IMG/VR virus record: IMGVR_UViG_3300034812_000219
Span: 1-21,099 of that record
Strand: one strand, 5' to 3'
Length of the DNA: 21,099 nt
Source: a virus
In this document: piece by piece, positions 1,234 to 21,099 of the stretch
Layout of the letters: every line of letters starts with the position of its first letter
Position numbering within the stretch: the first letter of the stretch is position 1
The notes under the pieces: model-generated
What the model was told of the DNA's origin: nothing
The model's database searches: none
What the model saw: only the letters and a program-made list of their open reading frames with translations
Made by a program: the position numbers and the translations under genes

Positions 1234-2011
1234 CCTTTATATGCTTTTTTTAATTCTTGTTGTTCTATTTGTACTTTCTCTTTTTCAAAGGCTAAATAAT
1301 TTAAACATTCGAAAAGTGGTAATTTTGTAACTTGGTTAAATCGAAGGACATTTCCTTTAGCGAGTGCATAAACTGATTGATACCACCCCCATTTTTTTGC
1401 AAATGTGCTTCTAGCTGTTGCATATCCTTCTTCGACAGATTCTTCTCCATAAATCTCGGTATAGCTTGAAGTAACACCTTCCCTAAATCGTAAAAAAAAA
1501 GCATGGCACTTAAAGCAACATCCATTGGCATATTCTTCATTATTTGCTGTACTTCTTCTTTTGCTTCATATGGTGCTATATCATATTTATTACCAAGCTT
1601 AAAATTAACTGGCCTATACATAACACTCATTACAACGTGCATTTTTTGCCAATTAGAAATATTAGATTCTATATCAATATATTCTCCTAATGATATATCA
1701 TCAAGTTTTGGTATGAAACCCATATCTACACCTTCTAATTTAAACCTAGTTATAAGCTTTGGTTTTTCACTAAAAGCTTTATTTAGTATTTCTAATACTT
1801 TGTTAAAACCTCTTACAGAAATCTTATCTACTTCTGCAAGGTTTATGTTGCAAAATATTTCAACAAGTTTCATGTTTAGAAAGTTTGTTAGCTCATCAGT
1901 TTCTTCTGCGTCCTTATGAGCATCCATGACTTTCATATATTTCTGGTACTGCTCAAGCGTTATATCATTTAGCGATTGCGGTACTTCTAATTCTATAAAT
2001 TTCTTAGCCAT
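1230..2011 (-). CDS. Tail assembly chaperone, -1 frameshift fusion product
   Basis: This is the long product predicted from the chaperone gene. Ribosomes read 207 codons in the zero frame to the run of seven A at 1398-1392, slip back one base, and read 53 more residues to TGA at 1232-1230. The extension begins WGWYQSVYALAKGNVLRF and later has FECLNYLAFEKEKVQ. That is the pattern (WGxY, LA, phi-E-x-L-xx-L) seen in T-domain extensions of lambda G/GT-type chaperones, which recruit the tape measure and tail tube. The zero-frame codons are CAA AAA AAT, giving the slippery heptamer A AAA AAT, followed by GGGGGTGG. Total 260 residues. The fusion is inferred; slippage efficiency cannot be seen. Confidence 0.75.
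1301..2011 (-). CDS. Tail assembly chaperone, short (G-like) form
   Basis: 236 residues, the product when no frameshift happens. The N-terminal half is helical (LNDITLEQYQKYMKVMD). The centre carries GFIPKLDDISLGEYIDIE and MYRPVNFK, and the later part has MPMDVALSAMLFFYDLGK. I associate this arrangement with flavobacterial phage tail chaperones that hold the tape measure during tail assembly. The ATG at 2011 follows an A/T-rich leader directly below an array of TTACACTATGTAA repeats. The zero-frame C-terminus after the slippery run (GGGINQFMHS onward) looks less protein-like than the -1 frame, as expected when the fusion is the conserved form. Confidence 0.72.
   Translation of the reverse strand: MAKKFIELEVPQSLNDITLEQYQKYMKVMDAHKDAEETDELTNFLNMKLVEIFCNINLAEVDKISVRGFNKVLEILNKAFSEKPKLITRFKLEGVDMGFIPKLDDISLGEYIDIESNISNWQKMHVVMSVMYRPVNFKLGNKYDIAPYEAKEEVQQIMKNMPMDVALSAMLFFYDLGKVLLQAIPRFMEKNLSKKDMQQLEAHLQKNGGGINQFMHSLKEMSFDLTKLQNYHFSNV
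1391..1398 (-). promoter_or_regulatory. Slippery heptamer for -1 frameshifting
   Basis: Minus strand A AAA AAT in the zero frame, followed at once by GGGGGTGG. After a one-base slip the downstream frame stays open for 53 codons and ends in the start codon of the next gene. An A-rich X XXY YYZ heptamer inside a tail chaperone gene is a classic site. A pause hairpin is not obvious. Confidence 0.72.
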
Positions 2012-2049
2012 ATTATAATTAATAATTATTGTTAATATTGTATTTTAAG

Positions 2050-2189
2050 TATTCCATATGTCTGTTTGTCATATTAATAGTATAATATATATTTAGTATT
2101 ACACCATGTAATATATTACACTATGTATAATATTACACTATGTAATATATATATAATATATATATACTGACTATATGTCATTTGGAATA
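2050..2189. repeat. Three TTACACTATGTAA dyad repeats at 17-bp spacing (array A)
   Basis: Copies start at 2099, 2116 and 2133, exactly 17 bp apart, consensus TTACACTATGTAA. Each is an inverted repeat TTACA-N3-TGTAA, perfect in the first and third copies and one base off in the second. A pure A/T stretch follows (about 2144-2165). An outer imperfect inverted pair, TATTCCATATG at 2050 and CATTTGGAATA at 2179, frames the array. The same repeat, on the same register, occurs at 14608-14671. Iterons of a replication origin and operators of a phage regulator both fit. The array lies between a small gene and the tail chaperone gene. Confidence 0.85.
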
Positions 2190-2378
2190 TTTCTTATAAT
2201 AGTACAGGTATATTTCATAAACCTTATCACTCCATTGTTTTCTTCCATATGTTTTAGGACTACGAGTAATATTACCATTGTTATCTACTTCAACAAAGTA
2301 TTGTTTAGCGTCTCTTGGTACAGCGTAAACCTTTATACCATTTTTTATACACCAAGATATTGCATCATATTTTTCCAT
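2178..2378 (-). CDS. Small conserved phage protein, 66 aa
   Basis: Starts MEKYDAISWCIKNGIKVY and ends in a Tyr-rich helix (YEIYLYYYKK). The middle reads FVEVDNNGNITRSPKTY, a short beta-hairpin with a turn, so the fold looks like alpha-beta-beta-alpha. I do not know its function. It is the last gene before array A and the structural genes, and the first after a 400-base non-coding region. The stop codon lies inside the outer inverted repeat of array A. Confidence 0.65.
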   Translation of the reverse strand: MEKYDAISWCIKNGIKVYAVPRDAKQYFVEVDNNGNITRSPKTYGRKQWSDKVYEIYLYYYKKYSK

Positions 2379-8918: not shown

Positions 8919-9252
8919 CTACTTCGTTATGTTCAATATCAATAGTAGTGTCTTTATCTAAGAAGTTTATTACAGGAATATTAACTTCTGTTTTAACATC
9001 AAGTTCTTTGCTTTCTTTTGGTTTACCATACTTATATTCCCAAAGTAATCTCATATGAGGGAAACTTTCTTTTGCCATCTTACCAAGTTCTAACCAAGCT
9101 TTCTCCTCACTTCCAAATACTTTTTTCATTGATTGTAAAGCAAAGCTACTTATCTTTTTTTCTTGTGCTTTAGGTTTTCGGCCCTGACCTCTTGATATGC
9201 CTTTTATAGCACCATTATTTCTACGACCATCTTTTTTCTTTATTTCGTCCAT
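8893..9252 (-). CDS. terS: Terminase small subunit
   Basis: 119 residues. The N-terminus DGRRNNGAIKGISRGQGRK is the basic linker typical of small subunits of Bacteroidota phages. It is followed by a helical DNA-recognition core (FALQSMKKVFGSEEKAWLEL) and KLLWEYKYGKPK-like sequence (here RLLWEYKYGKPKES). The acidic tail carries the oligomer or large-subunit contact. It binds the pac or cos site and loads the large subunit. Directly upstream of and overlapping terL. Confidence 0.82.
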   Translation of the reverse strand: MDEIKKKDGRRNNGAIKGISRGQGRKPKAQEKKISSFALQSMKKVFGSEEKAWLELGKMAKESFPHMRLLWEYKYGKPKESKELDVKTEVNIPVINFLDKDTTIDIEHNEVDEKPKPKQ

Positions 9253-9590
9253 AAACCTTTACTTACTAATTGTGCTATAATAGAATAGTTACCTAAGTCC
9301 ATAAAACTATCTACAAGTGATTCGTTGTTGGCTTTTCTTTTTTTCATAATTAGATTTTTCCATCTGCTTATTTTATCATTCATTCTAAACCATAATCCTG
9401 TCAATGCAAAAACTTTACCTTCTTCGGTTTCTAAGTTTGCACCTGTGCTTATATTACTACTACCATAATCTAATTGCTTTTTACAGAACAATTCAAATTG
9501 TTCAAGCATAATAGATTCATAATTGTCATATAAATTTGGCTGTTCTTTTTGTAATAGTTTTCTGTACTTGTTTTCCATTTTTAATTTCAT
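9240..9590 (-). CDS. Nmad1/DUF1599-like protein
   Basis: 116 residues. The sequence F-x-x-F-C-KKQLDYGSSNI, then FALTGLWFRMNDKISRW, NNESLVDSFMDLGNYSIIA matches what I know of the Nmad1 (DUF1599) family: KQxDYG, RxxDKxxR, ESxxDxxxDLxNY. Members are linked to base modification or nucleotide pools in phages; the chemistry is not settled. Two starts fit, ATG 9590 (MKLKMEN) and ATG 9578 (MENKYRK); the latter has the better A-rich leader. It overlaps the upstream gene by at least 53 bases and terS by 13. Confidence 0.7.
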   Translation of the reverse strand: MKLKMENKYRKLLQKEQPNLYDNYESIMLEQFELFCKKQLDYGSSNISTGANLETEEGKVFALTGLWFRMNDKISRWKNLIMKKRKANNESLVDSFMDLGNYSIIAQLVSKGLWTK

Positions 9591-9861: not shown

Positions 9862-10076
9862 TATAATATTGTATGACGACTATGTACGCCACCTATTGTT
9901 ATAGTTTTTTTATAATCGTTTATAGCTCTTATAATTCCACTACAACACTCATAATGTTCTTCATGTTCATAATATTGTAAAACAAAATAAACATCTGATA
10001 AAGTAGATATATTTGTTTCTAAGCAAAACATAGTATCTCTATAACATTCTTTTTCTTCTAAATATAATTCATTCAT
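9861..10076 (-). CDS. Small acidic Cys-containing protein, 71 aa
   Basis: Starts MNELYLEEKECYRDTMFCL and has YYEHEEHYECCSGIIRAI. It contains four Cys and several His, but no standard zinc spacing. The start overlaps the stop of the exonuclease gene and its own stop overlaps the next start, so it is co-translated with both. Function unknown. Confidence 0.6.
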   Translation of the reverse strand: MNELYLEEKECYRDTMFCLETNISTLSDVYFVLQYYEHEEHYECCSGIIRAINDYKKTITIGGVHSRHTIL

Positions 10077-10849
10077 TACAAAGTATCTTCTATTAAATAA
10101 TCATTTAGGTCAAATTCATTTTTAATAAAAGTTTCATATACTTTGATTGCTTGTTCTACTTTTTGTTCTCCCCTGTAATAAAAGTCTTGACTTATATCAT
10201 ATATGCCAATCTCATTTGTAGGGCTTTTATCTATTACAACAAATCTGTAATCTTTATATGTTTTGCCAAATAAATTACAATAAATGTACGCTTGGCTATC
10301 ATAATTATACATGTAAGCACTATGCTTAAATTTATGTATGTTTGCCGTACTTTTTAAATCTACCAAACATTCTCCTAATATATCTGCCTTACCTCTAAAT
10401 GGATGATTTAAAACATTATTTATTTCTGGCACTTCAAACTCTGCGTTCAATATAAAATCTGATGCTTCTTTACAATTATAAAATCTATCTCTTAATCTTA
10501 GAGCATTGTCTCTTTCTTTGATAGTAAATACATCCCACCTTTCCTGTTTAGCTAATTTATATTCTTTATTGTTTTTTGTGGCAACATCTAAAAATAAACA
10601 CTCATTAAATTTATCTTGCTCTAGTATAGAAGCATGAAATAAATAACCTTCTGATAATGCAGTCGATTCTGTGGGCAAATCAAAACTCATAAGGTACTCT
10701 CTTGGTGATTTAAGAAGTTTAGATACTGAACTACTTGATAAACAAGCTTTTGCCAAGTAACCATAATAAAATTTATCTTCTCTAGCTTTCTCAATTAGCT
10801 CTTGTCTGTTCCAAAACTCGCCATCTAATGTTGTTATAAAATCTTTCAT
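10076..10849 (-). CDS. RecE-like PD-(D/E)XK exonuclease
   Basis: 257 residues, the usual size for the exodeoxyribonuclease VIII / PDDEXK_1 group. In order: SSSSVSKLLKSPREY (substrate entry helix), SEGYLFHASILE with the conserved His, AEFEVPEI (Glu), FRGKADILGECLVDLKSTA with the catalytic Asp, Asp and Lys, and YDSQAYIYCNLFG (Q-x3-Y helix). Such enzymes chew 5' ends of double-stranded DNA to leave 3' tails for an annealing protein. ERF at 15301-15882 is the natural partner, though the two are 4.5 kb apart. Confidence 0.88.
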   Translation of the reverse strand: MKDFITTLDGEFWNRQELIEKAREDKFYYGYLAKACLSSSSVSKLLKSPREYLMSFDLPTESTALSEGYLFHASILEQDKFNECLFLDVATKNNKEYKLAKQERWDVFTIKERDNALRLRDRFYNCKEASDFILNAEFEVPEINNVLNHPFRGKADILGECLVDLKSTANIHKFKHSAYMYNYDSQAYIYCNLFGKTYKDYRFVVIDKSPTNEIGIYDISQDFYYRGEQKVEQAIKVYETFIKNEFDLNDYLIEDTL

Positions 10850-11691: not shown

Positions 11692-12098
11692 TAATTTTCT
11701 TTTAAGTATTCTAAATATACCCTTTGCAATTTATCATGTAGTTCATTTTTAAAACAACTGCCACAACTTGTAGGTTGCATATTATCTTTAAATACTCTAT
11801 TATAAATAACTAATAATTCTTTTTGTGTTTCTGAGGTTACTACATTCTTAACATTTTTAAAGTAATTGTCTAAATAATTAAATTCATCTTCATTAAGACA
11901 TTCTGGTTTGTTATACGGAAACAAACGATTAAGTACATCTCTGCGTTTATCACAGCCACAGTCTTCACCTAATATAAACTTAGCTACTTTGTCAACTCCA
12001 GTCTTTTTAAATACCTTTTCAACAGTATCTCCTAAACCTCTAGCTTTTGTATTTTTTGTATTCTTCTTTTGTGTTTTGTCTAATTTTTTCTTTTGCAT
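11691..12098 (-). CDS. Cys-rich conserved phage protein
   Basis: 135 residues. The N-terminus is basic (MQKKKLDKTQKKNTKNTKA). Then GLGDTVEKVFKKTGVDKVA, GEDCGCDKRRDVLNRLFPY and IYNRVFKDN with CGSC. The Cys pattern (CGC, ECL, CGSC) suggests a metal site. I have seen this combination in flavobacterial phages as an unannotated protein. It overlaps the sigma-like gene by 59 bases; a start inside the basic stretch would shorten the overlap. Confidence 0.65.
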   Translation of the reverse strand: MQKKKLDKTQKKNTKNTKARGLGDTVEKVFKKTGVDKVAKFILGEDCGCDKRRDVLNRLFPYNKPECLNEDEFNYLDNYFKNVKNVVTSETQKELLVIYNRVFKDNMQPTSCGSCFKNELHDKLQRVYLEYLKEN

Positions 12099-12618
12099 TT
12101 GTTAATGTATTAAATATTGAACTTAAACTTATCTTTGTCTCCTTGCTTAAATCTCTCATGCTCATACCACTATCAAAATATAATTTAGTTAGTTTTTTAT
12201 CGTACCAGTACCAACTATCAATAGTTTGTTCTATTTTTTCATGTAGTTTATCTAAACTCTTTTTTTTAGATACAGTTTGCATATATGATTCATAATCCTC
12301 AAAATAATTATTATAAACTTTCTTTATTGAATTGTCATCCATTTCTGTAAATAAAAATATTTTTCTAGTTTTTATACTCTTTCCATACTTGGCAAAATTA
12401 CTATAGTATAAGTTTCTTAATGTTATGTATATGTAAAAAGTATTGACTTCTGTTTTATTGTACATAATCTTTTTTATGTCTTTTGTATAATCATAAATTC
12501 TAATATACATTTCTTGTACTATTTCGTTTGCGTCATCATTTGACAAACCAAAGCTTTTTGCCATGTTAAACCAATCTTGGTGTTTGTTAGATAGTATGTC
12601 TAGTATCTCACAATTCAC
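12040..12618 (-). CDS. Phage sigma-70-like factor
   Basis: 192 residues from GTG 12618 (MNCEILDILSNKHQDWF), 11 bases inside the end of the VRR-NUC gene. Region 2-like: QDWFNMAKSFGLSNDDANE, then IVQEMYIRIYDYTKD. Region 4-like helix-turn-helix at the end: KLYFDSGMSMRDLSKETKI, SSIFNTLTNAKEKIR. That is the layout of small sigma-like regulators in flavobacterial phages. Longer frames up to ATG 12738 would sit inside the nuclease gene. It could switch host RNA polymerase to the phage -7 boxes (TAnTATTG or TATATTTG). Confidence 0.65.
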   Translation of the reverse strand: MNCEILDILSNKHQDWFNMAKSFGLSNDDANEIVQEMYIRIYDYTKDIKKIMYNKTEVNTFYIYITLRNLYYSNFAKYGKSIKTRKIFLFTEMDDNSIKKVYNNYFEDYESYMQTVSKKKSLDKLHEKIEQTIDSWYWYDKKLTKLYFDSGMSMRDLSKETKISLSSIFNTLTNAKEKIRQNTKEEYKKYKS

Positions 12619-12895
12619 AAAGCAATATCTCTTTAATTTGTTCAACAGAATTACAGACAAAGTATGAGCCATTCCAATTAGATTGAAATTGTAATTCATC
12701 TCTAGTAAGTCTTTGTTGAGATAGTGTTTTGCTACCATCTTTGATTTCTATTAAATAATTGTTTCCATTGTAACCAACAATAATATCTGGTGCACCTTTG
12801 CCAAGTTGATGAGTATGTAATATACTACAACCCATCTTCCTTAGTTCAGAAACTATTTTTTTTTGGTTACTATCTACTCTTGCTTTAAGTCGCAC
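12608..12895 (-). CDS. VRR-NUC domain nuclease
   Basis: 95 residues, the minimal stand-alone size. LGKGAPDIIVGYNGNNYLIEI carries the fold: catalytic Asp37, Glu50 and Lys52. Then DGSKTLSQQRLTRDELQFQ, with the conserved Gln/Glu helix. Stand-alone VRR-NUC proteins of phages cut branched DNA such as Holliday junctions. It overlaps the primase-helicase end by 22 bases, in keeping with replication-recombination coupling. Confidence 0.85.
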   Translation of the reverse strand: MRLKARVDSNQKKIVSELRKMGCSILHTHQLGKGAPDIIVGYNGNNYLIEIKDGSKTLSQQRLTRDELQFQSNWNGSYFVCNSVEQIKEILLCEL

Positions 12896-14604
12896 CTATA
12901 TTTATCTATTTCAACAAAAGGGGTTTGATTGTTAAAATAATATCGGCTTGACTTCCTGTCGTATGTTATACCAGCTATCTCTTGTGGATAACCAACTAAT
13001 TTTTGTTTTTTTATCTTTTGACTGCCAAATATAACTCTAGTATCGCTAAAGTCAACAGCTCTATTTGGTCTCCAAATAAATAGACAATTATCGCATTTAT
13101 CAGCAAAAGTACCACCACCTTTAATTCTGTTTACATCTGGTTTATAATATCTGTTGTTGTCATCTTTTTGTGGTGTAACTTGGTGTGCAACTAAATGTAC
13201 AGAAATTTTATTCTCTACTGCAAACCTTTTTAATTCACTCATGAATCGAGATATATATAAATCTTCTCTTTCACCTTTTTGCATCCTGTGTTGGATGGTG
13301 TTATAAGGGTCTATTATCAAAGAACGAATACCTTTTGTCTTAACTAAAAATTTAGCCCTGTCAAAGATATCGTCTAATTTATAACTTTTTTTTGGATATA
13401 TAACAAAAAAGTGTTTTTTCATAAACTCTAAACCTTCCTTAAAATCTTTTTCAGTCATATAGTTATTGGCATAAAAAGGGTCTGCGCTTTTGCCAATATA
13501 TGATTCTATTAAATCACTATAGAAATCATTTATAGGCATATTCTCTGGGCTAAATACACCAAACTTCCAACCATCATGAAAAGCTTTTAGTAAAGCTAAT
13601 TGCCCTAGAAACATACTCTTGCCTTCGTTTTGATAACCAGTCCAAATATTTACTTCTCCTATTCTCCAAGTCCAAGCATTGTCTATTGAATCTATGTGTG
13701 TGGTAGTACCCCTTTCTTGACCGTTCCTATAACCATCAATCATGCTATCGTATATATCGTCAATAGAAAATATACCCTCTAGCTTTGGGTCATGAGCATC
13801 TCTTACTCTTTGCTTTAATGATTCTATGCCTTCTTTTAATAAAACCTCATTTGCATCTTTATATGGTTTTAAACTTACTATCTTACATTTTTCTGCGCCA
13901 AATCTTCTGACTAATTCATCTTCTAAATATCTGCCATTGTCATCATTATCTGTTGCAATATAAACTCTTTCGGCCTGTTCAAATACTTCGTAACAATTAG
14001 ATATACATTCTAATTTTTTATCTAAGTTTTTATCTTTTATATTTGGTGCACCCATGTTTACAGAAGTATGCCAAGTAATACCAGCTACTTCCCAACTTAA
14101 TGAATCCATTTCTCCTTCGCATATAATTATTAGCTTTTCGTTTTTTACTCTATCGTAATTATATATAATTGGCAAACTATCTTTACTTTGTGTAAATGTT
14201 TTTTTTACCAAACCTCTAGTCTTATAGTTTATCAGTTCATTGTCTTTGAAATATGGAAATACAATACTATTGCCATCTTTTGTACTTATAATTTTGTTTG
14301 CTTGTATTACATCTTTTGTTATACCTCGTTTATATAAAAACTCTAAACCTTTGTTGTTTATCTTTTGCAGATTATTTTTCTGTGGTTTTGTATATTGTTT
14401 TGTAGGCATAAAATTATCTTTTGGTTTTACACATCCTTTCCAACTACATTTATGGCAATTAAAAAGACCTGTATCTAAGTTAATACTTAGACACAAATCT
14501 TTATAATGTTTTTTGCCAATTTTGTAACAATTAGGGCAAATGACCTTTTGTTGTGTTCTATTACCCTTAGGATATATAGATATATTTTTGAATTCTTGTA
14601 TCAT
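12874..14604 (-). CDS. Toprim primase and DnaB-like helicase
   Basis: 576 residues, T7 gp4-like layout. N-terminal zinc ribbon: CPNC (23-26) and CHKC (50-53). Toprim: IIICEGEMDSLSWE and VYIATDNDDNGR. Helicase: Walker A GYQNEGKS (about residue 325), Walker B LIIDPYN, HLVAHQ (sensor), DVNRIKGGGTFADKCDN and IWRPN. It would prime and unwind the phage replication fork. Start ATG 14604 lies 4 bases below the last repeat of array B. It overlaps the VRR-NUC gene. Confidence 0.93.
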   Translation of the reverse strand: MIQEFKNISIYPKGNRTQQKVICPNCYKIGKKHYKDLCLSINLDTGLFNCHKCSWKGCVKPKDNFMPTKQYTKPQKNNLQKINNKGLEFLYKRGITKDVIQANKIISTKDGNSIVFPYFKDNELINYKTRGLVKKTFTQSKDSLPIIYNYDRVKNEKLIIICEGEMDSLSWEVAGITWHTSVNMGAPNIKDKNLDKKLECISNCYEVFEQAERVYIATDNDDNGRYLEDELVRRFGAEKCKIVSLKPYKDANEVLLKEGIESLKQRVRDAHDPKLEGIFSIDDIYDSMIDGYRNGQERGTTTHIDSIDNAWTWRIGEVNIWTGYQNEGKSMFLGQLALLKAFHDGWKFGVFSPENMPINDFYSDLIESYIGKSADPFYANNYMTEKDFKEGLEFMKKHFFVIYPKKSYKLDDIFDRAKFLVKTKGIRSLIIDPYNTIQHRMQKGEREDLYISRFMSELKRFAVENKISVHLVAHQVTPQKDDNNRYYKPDVNRIKGGGTFADKCDNCLFIWRPNRAVDFSDTRVIFGSQKIKKQKLVGYPQEIAGITYDRKSSRYYFNNQTPFVEIDKYRCDLKQE

Positions 14605-14607
14605 TGT

Positions 14608-14671
14608 TTACACTATGTATTATAATACACTATGTATTATATATATATATATTATATATTACACTATGTAT
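14608..14671. repeat. TACACTATGTA dyad repeats, 17-bp register (array B)
   Basis: Copies at 14608, 14625 and 14659, so spacings are 17 and 34 (two registers); the missing position holds only A/T. Consensus as in array A at 2099-2145 (TTACACTATGTAA or close). It fills the gap between the winged-helix gene (the third copy touches its stop) and the primase-helicase start, next to an A/T-rich stretch. The placement fits a replication origin or an operator controlling the helicase. Confidence 0.85.
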
Positions 14672-14964
14672 TATAAGGAACTGACAAGCTTGACATCTGG
14701 ACTTACATAAATCTTTCTTTCTTTACCACCATTGCCTACACTTTTAGTTACTCTTTTTATATATTCTTTGTCTTCTAATTTGTTTAGTACCCTGTATAAA
14801 GTTCTATCGTTCATTTTTAATGCGCCACAAATAGATTTATTTGAAGCATAGCAAAAACCTTTTTTTCTGGTCAAACCTTCAATATAAGATAAAACAACAG
14901 TTTCTGGTATTGTTAAATTAGTATTCATAAAATTTAAATTAATATTTAAGTATTTGTTATTCAT
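14671..14964 (-). CDS. Winged-helix DNA-binding protein
   Basis: 97 residues. The centre is a winged helix: IPETVVLSYIEGLTRKKGF, CYASNKSICGALKMNDRTL with recognition helix YRVLNKLEDKEYIKRVTK, and a wing ending RKIYVSPD. This matches the helix_turn_helix_36/DnaD-N-like domains in replication initiators and regulators. It ends on the third repeat of array B, so it is the first candidate to bind those repeats. The leader carries a hairpin (14982-15035) and the A-rich AAAACTATG. Confidence 0.75.
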   Translation of the reverse strand: MNNKYLNINLNFMNTNLTIPETVVLSYIEGLTRKKGFCYASNKSICGALKMNDRTLYRVLNKLEDKEYIKRVTKSVGNGGKERKIYVSPDVKLVSSL

Positions 14965-15300: not shown

Positions 15301-15882
15301 TTAACTTATTAATAATTTTTCGACTTCTTTACTTACTTTGTATTTTTTTCTGACATCAGCTATTGTTATTCTATTTTCTTTTACAGCTTTTTTTGCATTG
15401 TCAAAATACTTGCCTGTTTTTGGCAACCACTCTTTTTCAGCATCTAGCGTTTGAGTAGTTGTTTGTGTCCAATTAGAGCTTGTTTTCGTGCTCTTAGAGT
15501 GTGTATTAGTAGCATCAACATCTTTAGTATCATCAATTAAAAATAAGCCGTTTAAAGCGTACTTTCTAGCATAACTAGATGATGCACCAAAACATTGAGC
15601 TATGTCCATACCCTTTTTACTAGGGTCAATACCAGCTTGTGCAGTAACACTTATAGTGTCTGTGCCATCACTTATAGTAACAGTAGCCACAACATATAAA
15701 GGGTCATTATTAACAAAATCAGATATTGTCAACAATAAACCTTCTTTTTTAAGTAGTGGTTTTACTGCTTCTAAAATGTCTTCACAACTTCTATAATTGT
15801 AATTACCAAAACTGTTCCTTTGATTTTTAGGTGCTTTCAAACTCGTTTGAATAGCCACCAATTTACTTTGTAGATTTTTCAT
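15301..15882 (-). CDS. erf: ERF family single-strand annealing protein
   Basis: 193 residues from ATG 15882 (MKNLQSKLVAIQTSLKAPK). I reject the longer frame starting at 15951 because its first 23 codons run through a terminator and promoter. Then NSFGNYNYRSCEDILEAVK, DTISVTAQAGIDPSKKGMD and IAQCFGASSSYARKYALNG are diagnostic of ERF (P22 Erf-like) proteins, which anneal complementary single strands in recombination and genome circularisation. The RecE-like nuclease makes its substrate. Confidence 0.9.
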   Translation of the reverse strand: MKNLQSKLVAIQTSLKAPKNQRNSFGNYNYRSCEDILEAVKPLLKKEGLLLTISDFVNNDPLYVVATVTISDGTDTISVTAQAGIDPSKKGMDIAQCFGASSSYARKYALNGLFLIDDTKDVDATNTHSKSTKTSSNWTQTTTQTLDAEKEWLPKTGKYFDNAKKAVKENRITIADVRKKYKVSKEVEKLLIS

Positions 15883-15886
15883 GGTG

Positions 15887-15915
15887 CTAATATATACAAA
15901 AAATGTCAGATGCAA
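15887..15915 (-). promoter_or_regulatory. Promoter of the ERF operon, nearly leaderless
   Basis: Minus strand TTG 15915-15913, 18 bases, TATATTAG 15894-15887. TTTGCATCTGACA carries the TGTCAG core on the opposite strand from the other promoters. The TTG lies in the U-run of the terminator. The expected +1 is about 15883-15882, so the mRNA may begin at or next to the ATG. Confidence 0.55.
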
Positions 15916-15945
15916 AAAAAAAGGGTAACAATTTTCAGCTACCCC
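15914..15945 (-). terminator. Factor-independent terminator after the lysis genes
   Basis: The minus-strand RNA has stem GGGUAGC / GUUACCC (one G-U pair) with an 8-base loop, followed by nine U. It ends the lysis operon; the ERF promoter overlaps the U-run. Confidence 0.9.
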
Positions 15946-16035
15946 TTTCAAACAATGAAAACAAAGAAATCAATGGATATATAATAACACCCTATTGAAT
16001 TCATAAAGATAGTAAAAAATACCTATTAAATTCAC

Positions 16036-18859: not shown

Positions 18860-21099
18860 TACTTAATTTGTTTTTTTAGTTCTTCAACTTCTGCTTTCAA
18901 CTCTTTTATAGCTTCAAGTAATATTGGTGCTATACCCTGATGCCTCATTGAAAGCATACCATCTTTATTTTCTCTCACAAGTTCTGGCATTACTTTTTGT
19001 ACATCTTGAGCTATAAATCCAACATCTTCTTTTAATTCTAATATGCTACCAGATTCTTTCCAATTAAATGTTACACCTTGTAATTTACTTACTTTATTTA
19101 AAGCTGACTTAATAGGTTTTATATTTTCTTTTAACCTTTTATCTGATGGTGAACCAAAAGCAACTAAGTCATCTGAAACAGTAAGTGTTCCACCTGCTAT
19201 ACCAGCTGCTGCTGAGTGTGAACTTCCACCATTATAAAAAATAAAATTATTTCCAACAGCTGAAATTAAAGGTTTTGCTGTACCGCTTGTATTATCGCAA
19301 ATTTCTATACCACCATAAGCATCTGTTGACTCAAATCTGGCTAATTGATTATCTGAAGAACTTACATGAAACATTCTATCAGGTGATGTAGTTCCAATTC
19401 CTACATTACCTGAACTATCAATAGTTAATCTAGTTGAAGTATTAAGATTTCCTGAATTAGCTATTTTAAATTTATCACCATCAGAATTATCTATACCCAT
19501 TAGATATTCGCTAATACCAGTCAATCTAAAAGACATAGCAGCATCACCCGTGCTATCTTGGTCAATCATAAATTGTTTTGTACTAGTATCGTTTGAATAA
19601 ATGTGGGTTTTAACTTCAGGCGATGTAGTTCCGATTCCTACACTTCCACCATTAGCAATTCGCATAGCTTCCGAATTATCACCAGTTTTAAAAGTCATAG
19701 CTGTAGACCCGCCAGAAGTTGAAGTCGCTATATAATTTATAGAACCTCTAACACCTGCACCAGAACCAGAGCCATCTGCTGAATAAAAGTTTATACCACC
19801 AATTCTTTCTCCACTCCAACTAGCATCATTTTTAGTACATCCTAAGGTAATTATAGATGTATCTGCTGCCCCTTCTAAATTTAAAAGTGTATCAGGTGAA
19901 GTTGTTCCAATTCCTACATTACCTCCAGATTCTACCATTAATAAAGCGTTTGCAAGTTCACTGGTGCTATCAGTGTGGCTTGCGGTACTTTTATGTCCAA
20001 TTACATAACTATCAAACCCATCAGCATACGGCACTCCTGCATAAAATTCTTGGTCATCATTTGTATTGTGCATAAAAACACCAGCTCCTCTTCCAGCGTT
20101 TTGTGTAGAATTTAAAATTAATCTAGAGTTTGTATGATTAGTACTTCCGTCTGATTGTATATTAATTGTTCCAGATACATCTAATTTTTGTGTAGGGCTT
20201 TCAACGCCAATTCCTACATTTCCTGATGAATTAATAATTAAATCAGTTTCAGCAGCAGTATAATTTGTTCCGAAACCTAATCTTATGTTTGAATTACCAA
20301 TTACTGCAAAACCTGCTGCACCCCTACCATTATAAATCAAAGTTTCAAAATCATTAATAGTTTTTATTCCATTACTACCTAAAGCACCAGTTGTGTCAAA
20401 TAATAATGTAGAACCAACTCCAGAGGCATATATACTTCCAACAACTTGTAAATTTTGTGAGGGAGAATCTGTTCCAATTCCTACATTGCCCCCGCCTTTA
20501 ACTACCATTCTTGCTACACCGCTTGTTCCTAAAACAACAAAGTCTTGTCCATTTCTAGGTTCAACAACTAAATTACCAGATGTTCCTGTAAATGGATATG
20601 CACCACCCGTATTTTCAGTAGAGTATATTGTAGAATATGTTAAATTAGAAGCTGCTACTATATTATTTCTAATACCTATTCTTCCTCCATTTATATCTAA
20701 TTTACTAGCAGGTGATGTAGTTCCTATTCCTACATTTTGTGATGTATCTATGAACATAGCCATTGAACTCGCATTTGTTCTAAACTCTAAAGCTTTACCA
20801 CTTAACCCAGCAATTATTGCTTTTCCTGTGTCCCATGTTAAATTACCATAATCTGCTGCACCACCCCAATCTAAAGTACCATCAGATTGCATAATAATTT
20901 TACCAGCATTAGATATTGACTGACCTGATGCAGTAGTTATACTACCTTCAAAAGTTGCATCTTGTGATGAATCTAATGTTAAAGCTAGTGTGTTAGATGG
21001 AGCAAACTGAATACCGCCTGTTGCTCTTATATAAGGACTATTAGCTAAAGCACCAGTAAAAGTATTATTAACATCACCATTTAATCCGAAATATGCACT
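18859..21099 (-). CDS. Tail fibre with C-terminal S74 chaperone, 5' part outside window
   Basis: The frame stays open to the window edge, so the true start is upstream; the Met at 20892 is internal. At least 746 residues. The body has six repeats of GNVGIGTTSP or close forms, each followed by a beta-rich section, typical of trimeric fibre stalks. The last 95 residues are a peptidase S74 (intramolecular chaperone) domain: SDKRLKENIKPIKSALNKV with the Ser-Lys dyad, DVGFIAQDVQKVMPELV and a terminal helix. The chaperone is expected to cut itself off after folding. It binds host surface glycans. Confidence 0.9.
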   Translation of the reverse strand, partial: SAYFGLNGDVNNTFTGALANSPYIRATGGIQFAPSNTLALTLDSSQDATFEGSITTASGQSISNAGKIIMQSDGTLDWGGAADYGNLTWDTGKAIIAGLSGKALEFRTNASSMAMFIDTSQNVGIGTTSPASKLDINGGRIGIRNNIVAASNLTYSTIYSTENTGGAYPFTGTSGNLVVEPRNGQDFVVLGTSGVARMVVKGGGNVGIGTDSPSQNLQVVGSIYASGVGSTLLFDTTGALGSNGIKTINDFETLIYNGRGAAGFAVIGNSNIRLGFGTNYTAAETDLIINSSGNVGIGVESPTQKLDVSGTINIQSDGSTNHTNSRLILNSTQNAGRGAGVFMHNTNDDQEFYAGVPYADGFDSYVIGHKSTASHTDSTSELANALLMVESGGNVGIGTTSPDTLLNLEGAADTSIITLGCTKNDASWSGERIGGINFYSADGSGSGAGVRGSINYIATSTSGGSTAMTFKTGDNSEAMRIANGGSVGIGTTSPEVKTHIYSNDTSTKQFMIDQDSTGDAAMSFRLTGISEYLMGIDNSDGDKFKIANSGNLNTSTRLTIDSSGNVGIGTTSPDRMFHVSSSDNQLARFESTDAYGGIEICDNTSGTAKPLISAVGNNFIFYNGGSSHSAAAGIAGGTLTVSDDLVAFGSPSDKRLKENIKPIKSALNKVSKLQGVTFNWKESGSILELKEDVGFIAQDVQKVMPELVRENKDGMLSMRHQGIAPILLEAIKELKAEVEELKKQIK
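19378..20745 (-). repeat. Six direct repeats coding GIGTTSP in the fibre gene
   Basis: On the plus strand, copies of GTTCCAATTCCTACATT or close forms occur near 19390, 19628, 19899, 20200, 20473 and 20718. They encode the repeated NVGIGTTSP motif. Identity within each core is high enough to allow recombination between them. Confidence 0.8.

Follow-up and report, generated by a model that had tools for sequence, protein, structure and literature searches.

Paired repeat arrays that change together in a group of uncultured phages: candidate origins under one initiator

Control of two replication origins by one initiator is already known and is best described in phage SPP1. In this phage, oriL and oriR lie 12-13 kb apart, each carries repeats and an A/T-rich unwinding element, and both are bound by gp38; one origin is at the initiator gene and the other among the late genes, and a scheme has been proposed in which the second site is an origin or a fork-arrest site that sets off recombination-dependent concatemer synthesis (PMC6316719, PMC3485210). 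Semi-palindromic direct repeats are usual for RepA_N initiators (PMC7145576), and lambda has, at its initiator gene, iterons in the form of imperfect inverted repeats with an A/T tract next to them (PMC7466680).

We compared these systems with a 21,099-bp IMG/VR record (G000) from an uncultured phage; this whole stretch is referred to here as the window. Like SPP1, it carries one type of direct repeat in two arrays that lie far apart (arrays A and B), each with a candidate A/T-rich unwinding element as judged by computed duplex stability. One array adjoins an initiator-like gene and lies 12.5 kb from the other (11.8 kb in the relative G011), and genes for an annealing protein, an exonuclease, and a nuclease are present in both phages. 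Several differences stand beside these similarities. Array B lies just after the initiator-like gene rather than inside it, the helicase is fused to a primase, none of the window proteins searched (a subset of the open reading frames) was recognised as a helicase loader, and the likely host belongs to a phylum other than that of Bacillus, the host of SPP1. The candidate reader of the arrays is a bare 97-aa domain; the likeness to SPP1, whose initiator is G38P (gp38), is one of layout. The locus also recalls lambda, whose O protein is an initiator that binds imperfect inverted-repeat arrays by an A/T tract; the candidate reader has an O-like PHROG match and shares a winged-helix DNA-binding domain with lambda O, RepA_N, and the phrog_270 and phrog_428 families. 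In contrast, lambda has a single origin inside gene O, with 19-bp iterons and the P protein as partner.

Layout of the arrays and their flanks

All recognised genes in the window lie on one strand. In order of transcription, they encode a tail fibre and an amidase (both called from reading the sequence only), an Erf annealing protein, and the winged-helix protein, followed by array B, the primase-helicase, a small nuclease, a sigma-like protein, an exonuclease, the terminase, and small genes, and then by array A and the structural genes. A small protein matching DUF1599 (nucleotide modification associated) is encoded at 9240-9590, near the terminase gene. The relative G011, a 38-kb contig, has the same gene order in circular form, and its inexact terminal repeat implies a genome of about 36 kb; contig terminal repeats gave no fixed genome ends. 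The named relatives infect Tenacibaculum and Nonlabens, and the host is therefore likely to be a member of the Flavobacteria. The features of the window are as follows.

1301-2011, minus strand: phrog_32199 gene, function unassigned, first downstream of array A and head of the structural-gene block
2037-2046, minus strand: AAAATACAAT box, a conserved, promoter-like RTACAA-like box shortly past element D
2051-2072, minus strand: element D, a mirror-image copy of element U on the side of array A that faces the structural operon
2099-2145, minus strand: array A, three repeats that read as the TACATAGTGTA type in the coding strand and are set 17 bp apart
2143-2166, no strand: A/T-only tract of 24 bp beside array A, a candidate unwinding element
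2167-2187, minus strand: element U at array A (TTCCAAATGACATATAGTCAG), the conserved flank upstream of the array
2178-2378, minus strand: small conserved gene (phrog_5945) just upstream of array A
10076-10849, minus strand: exonuclease VIII/DUF3799-type nuclease
12040-12738, minus strand: sigma-70-like protein, with weak family matches (homologue at E 1.7e-4)
12608-12895, minus strand: small nuclease (phrog_93 endonuclease), weakly Holliday-junction resolvase-like (Hjc, E 0.047)
12874-14604, minus strand: primase-helicase (Toprim and DnaB_C), its closest named helicase being that of Tenacibaculum phage JQ (49%)
14608-14671, minus strand: array B, which takes up the space from the winged-helix gene to the start codon of the primase-helicase gene
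14635-14661, no strand: A/T-only tract of 27 bp inside array B
14671-14964, minus strand: stand-alone winged-helix protein (HTH_36) of 97 aa, the likely reader of both arrays
14677-14702, minus strand: element U at array B, within the 3' end of the winged-helix gene
15301-15951, minus strand: Erf-family single-strand annealing protein

The repeat common to both arrays is semi-palindromic, 11-13 bp long, and set at 17-bp steps. An earlier note, made from the sequence alone, had reported three copies at array A in this register, two of them perfect dyads, next to pure A/T DNA and inside an outer inverted repeat, with the same repeat and register at 14608-14671. The copies at array A are TTACACCATGTAA (2099), TTACACTATGTAT (2116), and TTACACTATGTAA (2133); the steps are exactly 17 bp, and the first and third copies are perfect TTACA-N3-TGTAA dyads, as described. 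The copies are not identical, however: TTACACTATGTAA itself is present exactly once, so "three copies" is approximate. The pure A/T DNA is the 24-bp tract at 2143-2166. At array B, copies begin at 14608, 14625 (with two mismatches), and 14659, and the slot at 14642 is pure A/T, which leaves the 17-bp register intact in the window, again as reported.

Element U (TCCA..TGnC-N5-TGnCA) lies ahead of both arrays, in many relatives as well as in the window. The outer inverted repeat also held up, in that 2051-2072 and 2167-2187 are mirror copies of this one element and are conserved in relatives. A hairpin or terminator role for the inverted repeat was set aside, as the element is present singly at array B. 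Array A sits where the small-gene block meets the structural operon, with mirrored elements on both sides. The distance of element D to the start codon is about 60 bp for most relatives and 72-81 bp for the most distant ones. D and the RTACAA box together look like a putative late promoter; no D-type block follows array B. D-type elements (TGAC..GTCA followed by TGGAA) also occur past the terminase gene in relatives, namely at 15551 in G013 and 4110 in G014 (minus strand) and at 22031 in G007 and 6291 in G005 (plus strand), where they are followed by a start codon and by sequence similar to the -7 box of flavobacteria. Elements of this type are possibly a class of phage promoter.

By computed duplex stability in 100-bp stretches, array A is the least stable part of the record and array B the second least stable. 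Array A ranks first or second in instability in 17 of 21 genomes, array B is one of the three least stable stretches in no more than 12 of the 21, and both arrays are in the top three in 11. GC skew, which the earlier note had proposed as a check, showed no switch around the arrays; it follows the single coding strand and is therefore uninformative.

Conservation and concerted change of the repeat

We considered whether the arrays might be chance occurrences or an artefact of A/T-rich, low-complexity sequence. The local DNA is indeed A/T-rich, and the loose motif, with two mismatches allowed, is not enriched in the window (36 found versus 38.6 expected). However, when the window was shuffled 1,000 times with dinucleotides preserved, and each site 2,000 times locally, neither clusters of three TACANNNTGTA nor pairs at a 17-bp step were ever obtained, and both conservation and concerted change among relatives, described below, argue against such an origin, to which we give almost no credence. 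A further exact TTACA-N3-TGTAA dyad, the third in the window, stands isolated inside the tail-fibre gene (19071-19083) and is probably there by chance. Scattered, unphased copies across the genome, which would have spoken against the earlier note, were absent: in longer records searched for TACATAGTGTA, clusters were found essentially at the places of A and B only, in the coding-strand orientation at both, and the long relatives carry no arrays other than these two. No arrays were found at other putative promoters in these longer records. The observation of paired arrays is confirmed.

In dozens of related IMG/VR contigs, an array occurs at the same place upstream of the helicase gene, and one is also kept upstream of the first structural gene. 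Array A contains three to six copies in relatives, at a spacing near 17 bp (15-18 bp). At array B, one step is 16-17 bp in most relatives and the other is 26-34 bp, so that a step of about 17 bp is kept only once there. The register, the loss of which in close relatives would likewise have counted against the note, is therefore kept in close relatives, exactly so at A and in one step at B.

The motif itself varies by clade, and each new motif is common to arrays A and B of that genome. The clade of the window has TACATAGTGTA, whereas TACATAAAGTA is found in G013, TACAATGTA in G016, G018, and G021, GTTACAAGTAAC in G015, and TACACTTAGTGTA in G026. Across eleven clades, the agreement obtained by pairing A with B of the same genome was reached by none of 500,000 random permutations, and with one representative from each of eight clades, no other among the 40,320 permutations did better than pairing within genomes. 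Agreement is weak in some clades (G017 and G019), and array B was not recognisable in G023. Nonlabens phage P12024L gave no array comparison, since its relative of the array A gene directly follows the terminase gene and its primase is of another type. Because A and B are different loci that change together, they are most simply explained by one reader that acts in trans, and on this sequence comparison it is very probable that one factor reads both arrays. The idea of one protein acting at two places, put forward in the earlier note, is borne out to that extent by a motif that differs between clades and agrees within each genome. Many IMG/VR contigs (L018, L030, L035, L052, L083, L085, L087, L107, L110, L114, L120, and L134) start no more than a few hundred bases away from array A or B; these starts are probably assembly breaks in A/T-rich repeats.

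A winged-helix protein as the candidate reader

The winged-helix gene lies directly upstream of array B in nearly all loci examined that have sequence there. Its product matches the DNA-binding N-terminal domains of phage replication initiators in PHROGs and phage records, and the PHROGs matched (428, 270, 19658, 186, and 678) are almost all replication initiators. An AlphaFold model of the protein (pLDDT 87) has its best PDB fold matches in 4pql, 5kbj, and 4pt7, which are initiator or Rep-DNA structures of RepA-type plasmid initiators; RepA_N initiators of plasmids and satellites (pSK41, pTZ2162, and Vibrio cholerae PLE RepA) are the best solved-structure matches. The fold is shared almost as closely by MarR/PadR regulators, and the protein has no RepA_N Pfam match. 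RepA_N proteins differ in having a C-terminal domain, and their iterons converge on a poly-A tract. The protein encoded here is 97 aa long and stops where its winged-helix domain does, with no C-terminal domain for recruiting a helicase or loader.

With overall divergence controlled for, covariation with the motif is strongest in the wing and in residues 45-58, which lead into the recognition helix (helix 3); partial r reaches up to 0.37, which is suggestive only because the sequences are related. On these data, both arrays are likely read by the 97-aa protein. A 247-aa replication initiation protein is encoded immediately ahead of the related helicase gene in Tenacibaculum phage JQ. This initiator gene contains a 12-bp tandem repeat (L227, 36735-36779), a possible in-gene origin, which is not comparable with the window arrays and was not taken as their counterpart.

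Origins, operators, and other proposed roles for the arrays

As the main alternative to replication origins, the arrays might be operators of a transcription regulator, with A activating the late structural operon and B repressing or autoregulating the helicase operon. Array A lies upstream of the conserved promoter-like block formed by D and the RTACAA box, which most relatives have at about 60 bp from their first structural gene, and the fit of MarR/PadR regulators to the fold is compatible with such a role. The phage also carries the sigma-like gene, whose syntenic gene in P12024L is annotated with sigma-70 region 2; its product may be a late sigma factor that serves the late promoter near array A. 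However, the geometry is unequal, with the proximal copy 3 bp from the helicase start codon at B and 87 bp from the downstream gene at A in the window, and with no D-type block after B the arrays do not hold a fixed position relative to a promoter at each site. The absence of arrays at other putative promoters, the almost exclusive PHROG matches to replication initiators, and the extreme instability of the DNA at both sites also argue against operators. Because of the promoter-like block at A, we still allow this explanation a limited but real chance. A second alternative is that only B is an origin and that the same protein makes A a fork barrier, a packaging-related site, or a DNA-organising site. 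The initiator-like gene and the primase-helicase gene adjoin B alone, A, with its mirrored flanks, is placed where the small genes give way to the structural operon, and the shared orientation of the arrays would suit polar fork arrest. Against this, A is made up like B, of repeats, an A/T tract, and element U, and often has more copies and lower stability than B, and the terminase genes do not adjoin A; we judge this alternative quite improbable.

In lambda, OL and OR each present three palindromic operators, one set at each of two places. The arrays recall this arrangement, and the winged-helix protein has a very weak match to TubR (E 0.35), so a lysogeny switch or a partition site of the TubC/parS kind was also considered. 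One array lies beside replication genes, which is a difference from OL/OR. No tyrosine integrase was found in the 14 records searched, and a search of 84,980 bacterial and archaeal genomes for prophage or plasmid relatives of the winged-helix protein gave none. These two results suggest that the phage is virulent, and lysogeny operators of the OL/OR type are disfavoured on the same grounds. No partition NTPase was seen, the TubR match is not significant, and TubR-like partition was rejected; a lysogeny or partition role appears very remote.

We favour, with moderate confidence and on the pattern of oriL and oriR of SPP1, the reading that A and B are two iteron sets, and two origins, under one initiator, most likely the winged-helix protein. 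The earlier note had offered an initiator with two origins, looping, and a switch between replication and late genes. The protein family, the gene neighbourhood, and the instability of the DNA favour the first of these, and the late-gene switch is less probable but has a real chance. In support of two origins, the arrays have fixed paired places, agreeing motifs, the same orientation, and unstable DNA, with an initiator-type gene at B and genes for Erf and an exonuclease in the genome. Counted against it are the bare-domain protein, the lack of a recognised loader among the proteins searched, the MarR/PadR fit, the absence of a GC-skew switch, the promoter-like element between A and the structural genes, the clades with a weak shared motif (G017 and G019) or an unrecognisable B (G023), and the less consistent instability of B. 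As for the individual sites, it is fairly likely that B is a replication origin, and it would be the primary one because the initiator-like and primase-helicase genes adjoin it. For A, a role as second origin or as fork-arrest site is a more evenly balanced proposition, which we hold slightly more probable than its opposite.

Under two origins, the winged-helix protein would bind each semi-palindrome as a dimer. At B, the main (early) origin in this scheme, bound protein would open the adjacent A/T DNA, which would be passed to the primase-helicase encoded next door. Array A would serve as a second origin, or protein bound there would stall the fork coming from B, and the stalled fork could let Erf and the phage nucleases set off recombination-dependent concatemer synthesis, in line with the scheme for SPP1. 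A further, doubtful extension is that the bare 97-aa protein is a minimal initiator at two co-evolving origins, that A both arrests forks and controls the late promoter, and that replication from B directly triggers both concatemers and late expression.

If the two-origin reading is true, the initiator would be unusually small, and the arrays would provide origin landmarks for an uncultured group of Flavobacteria phages. In this group, known from many metagenome samples, the repeat sequence has changed many times and both arrays have kept pace, which would open initiator-DNA specificity and the theta-to-concatemer switch to comparative study.
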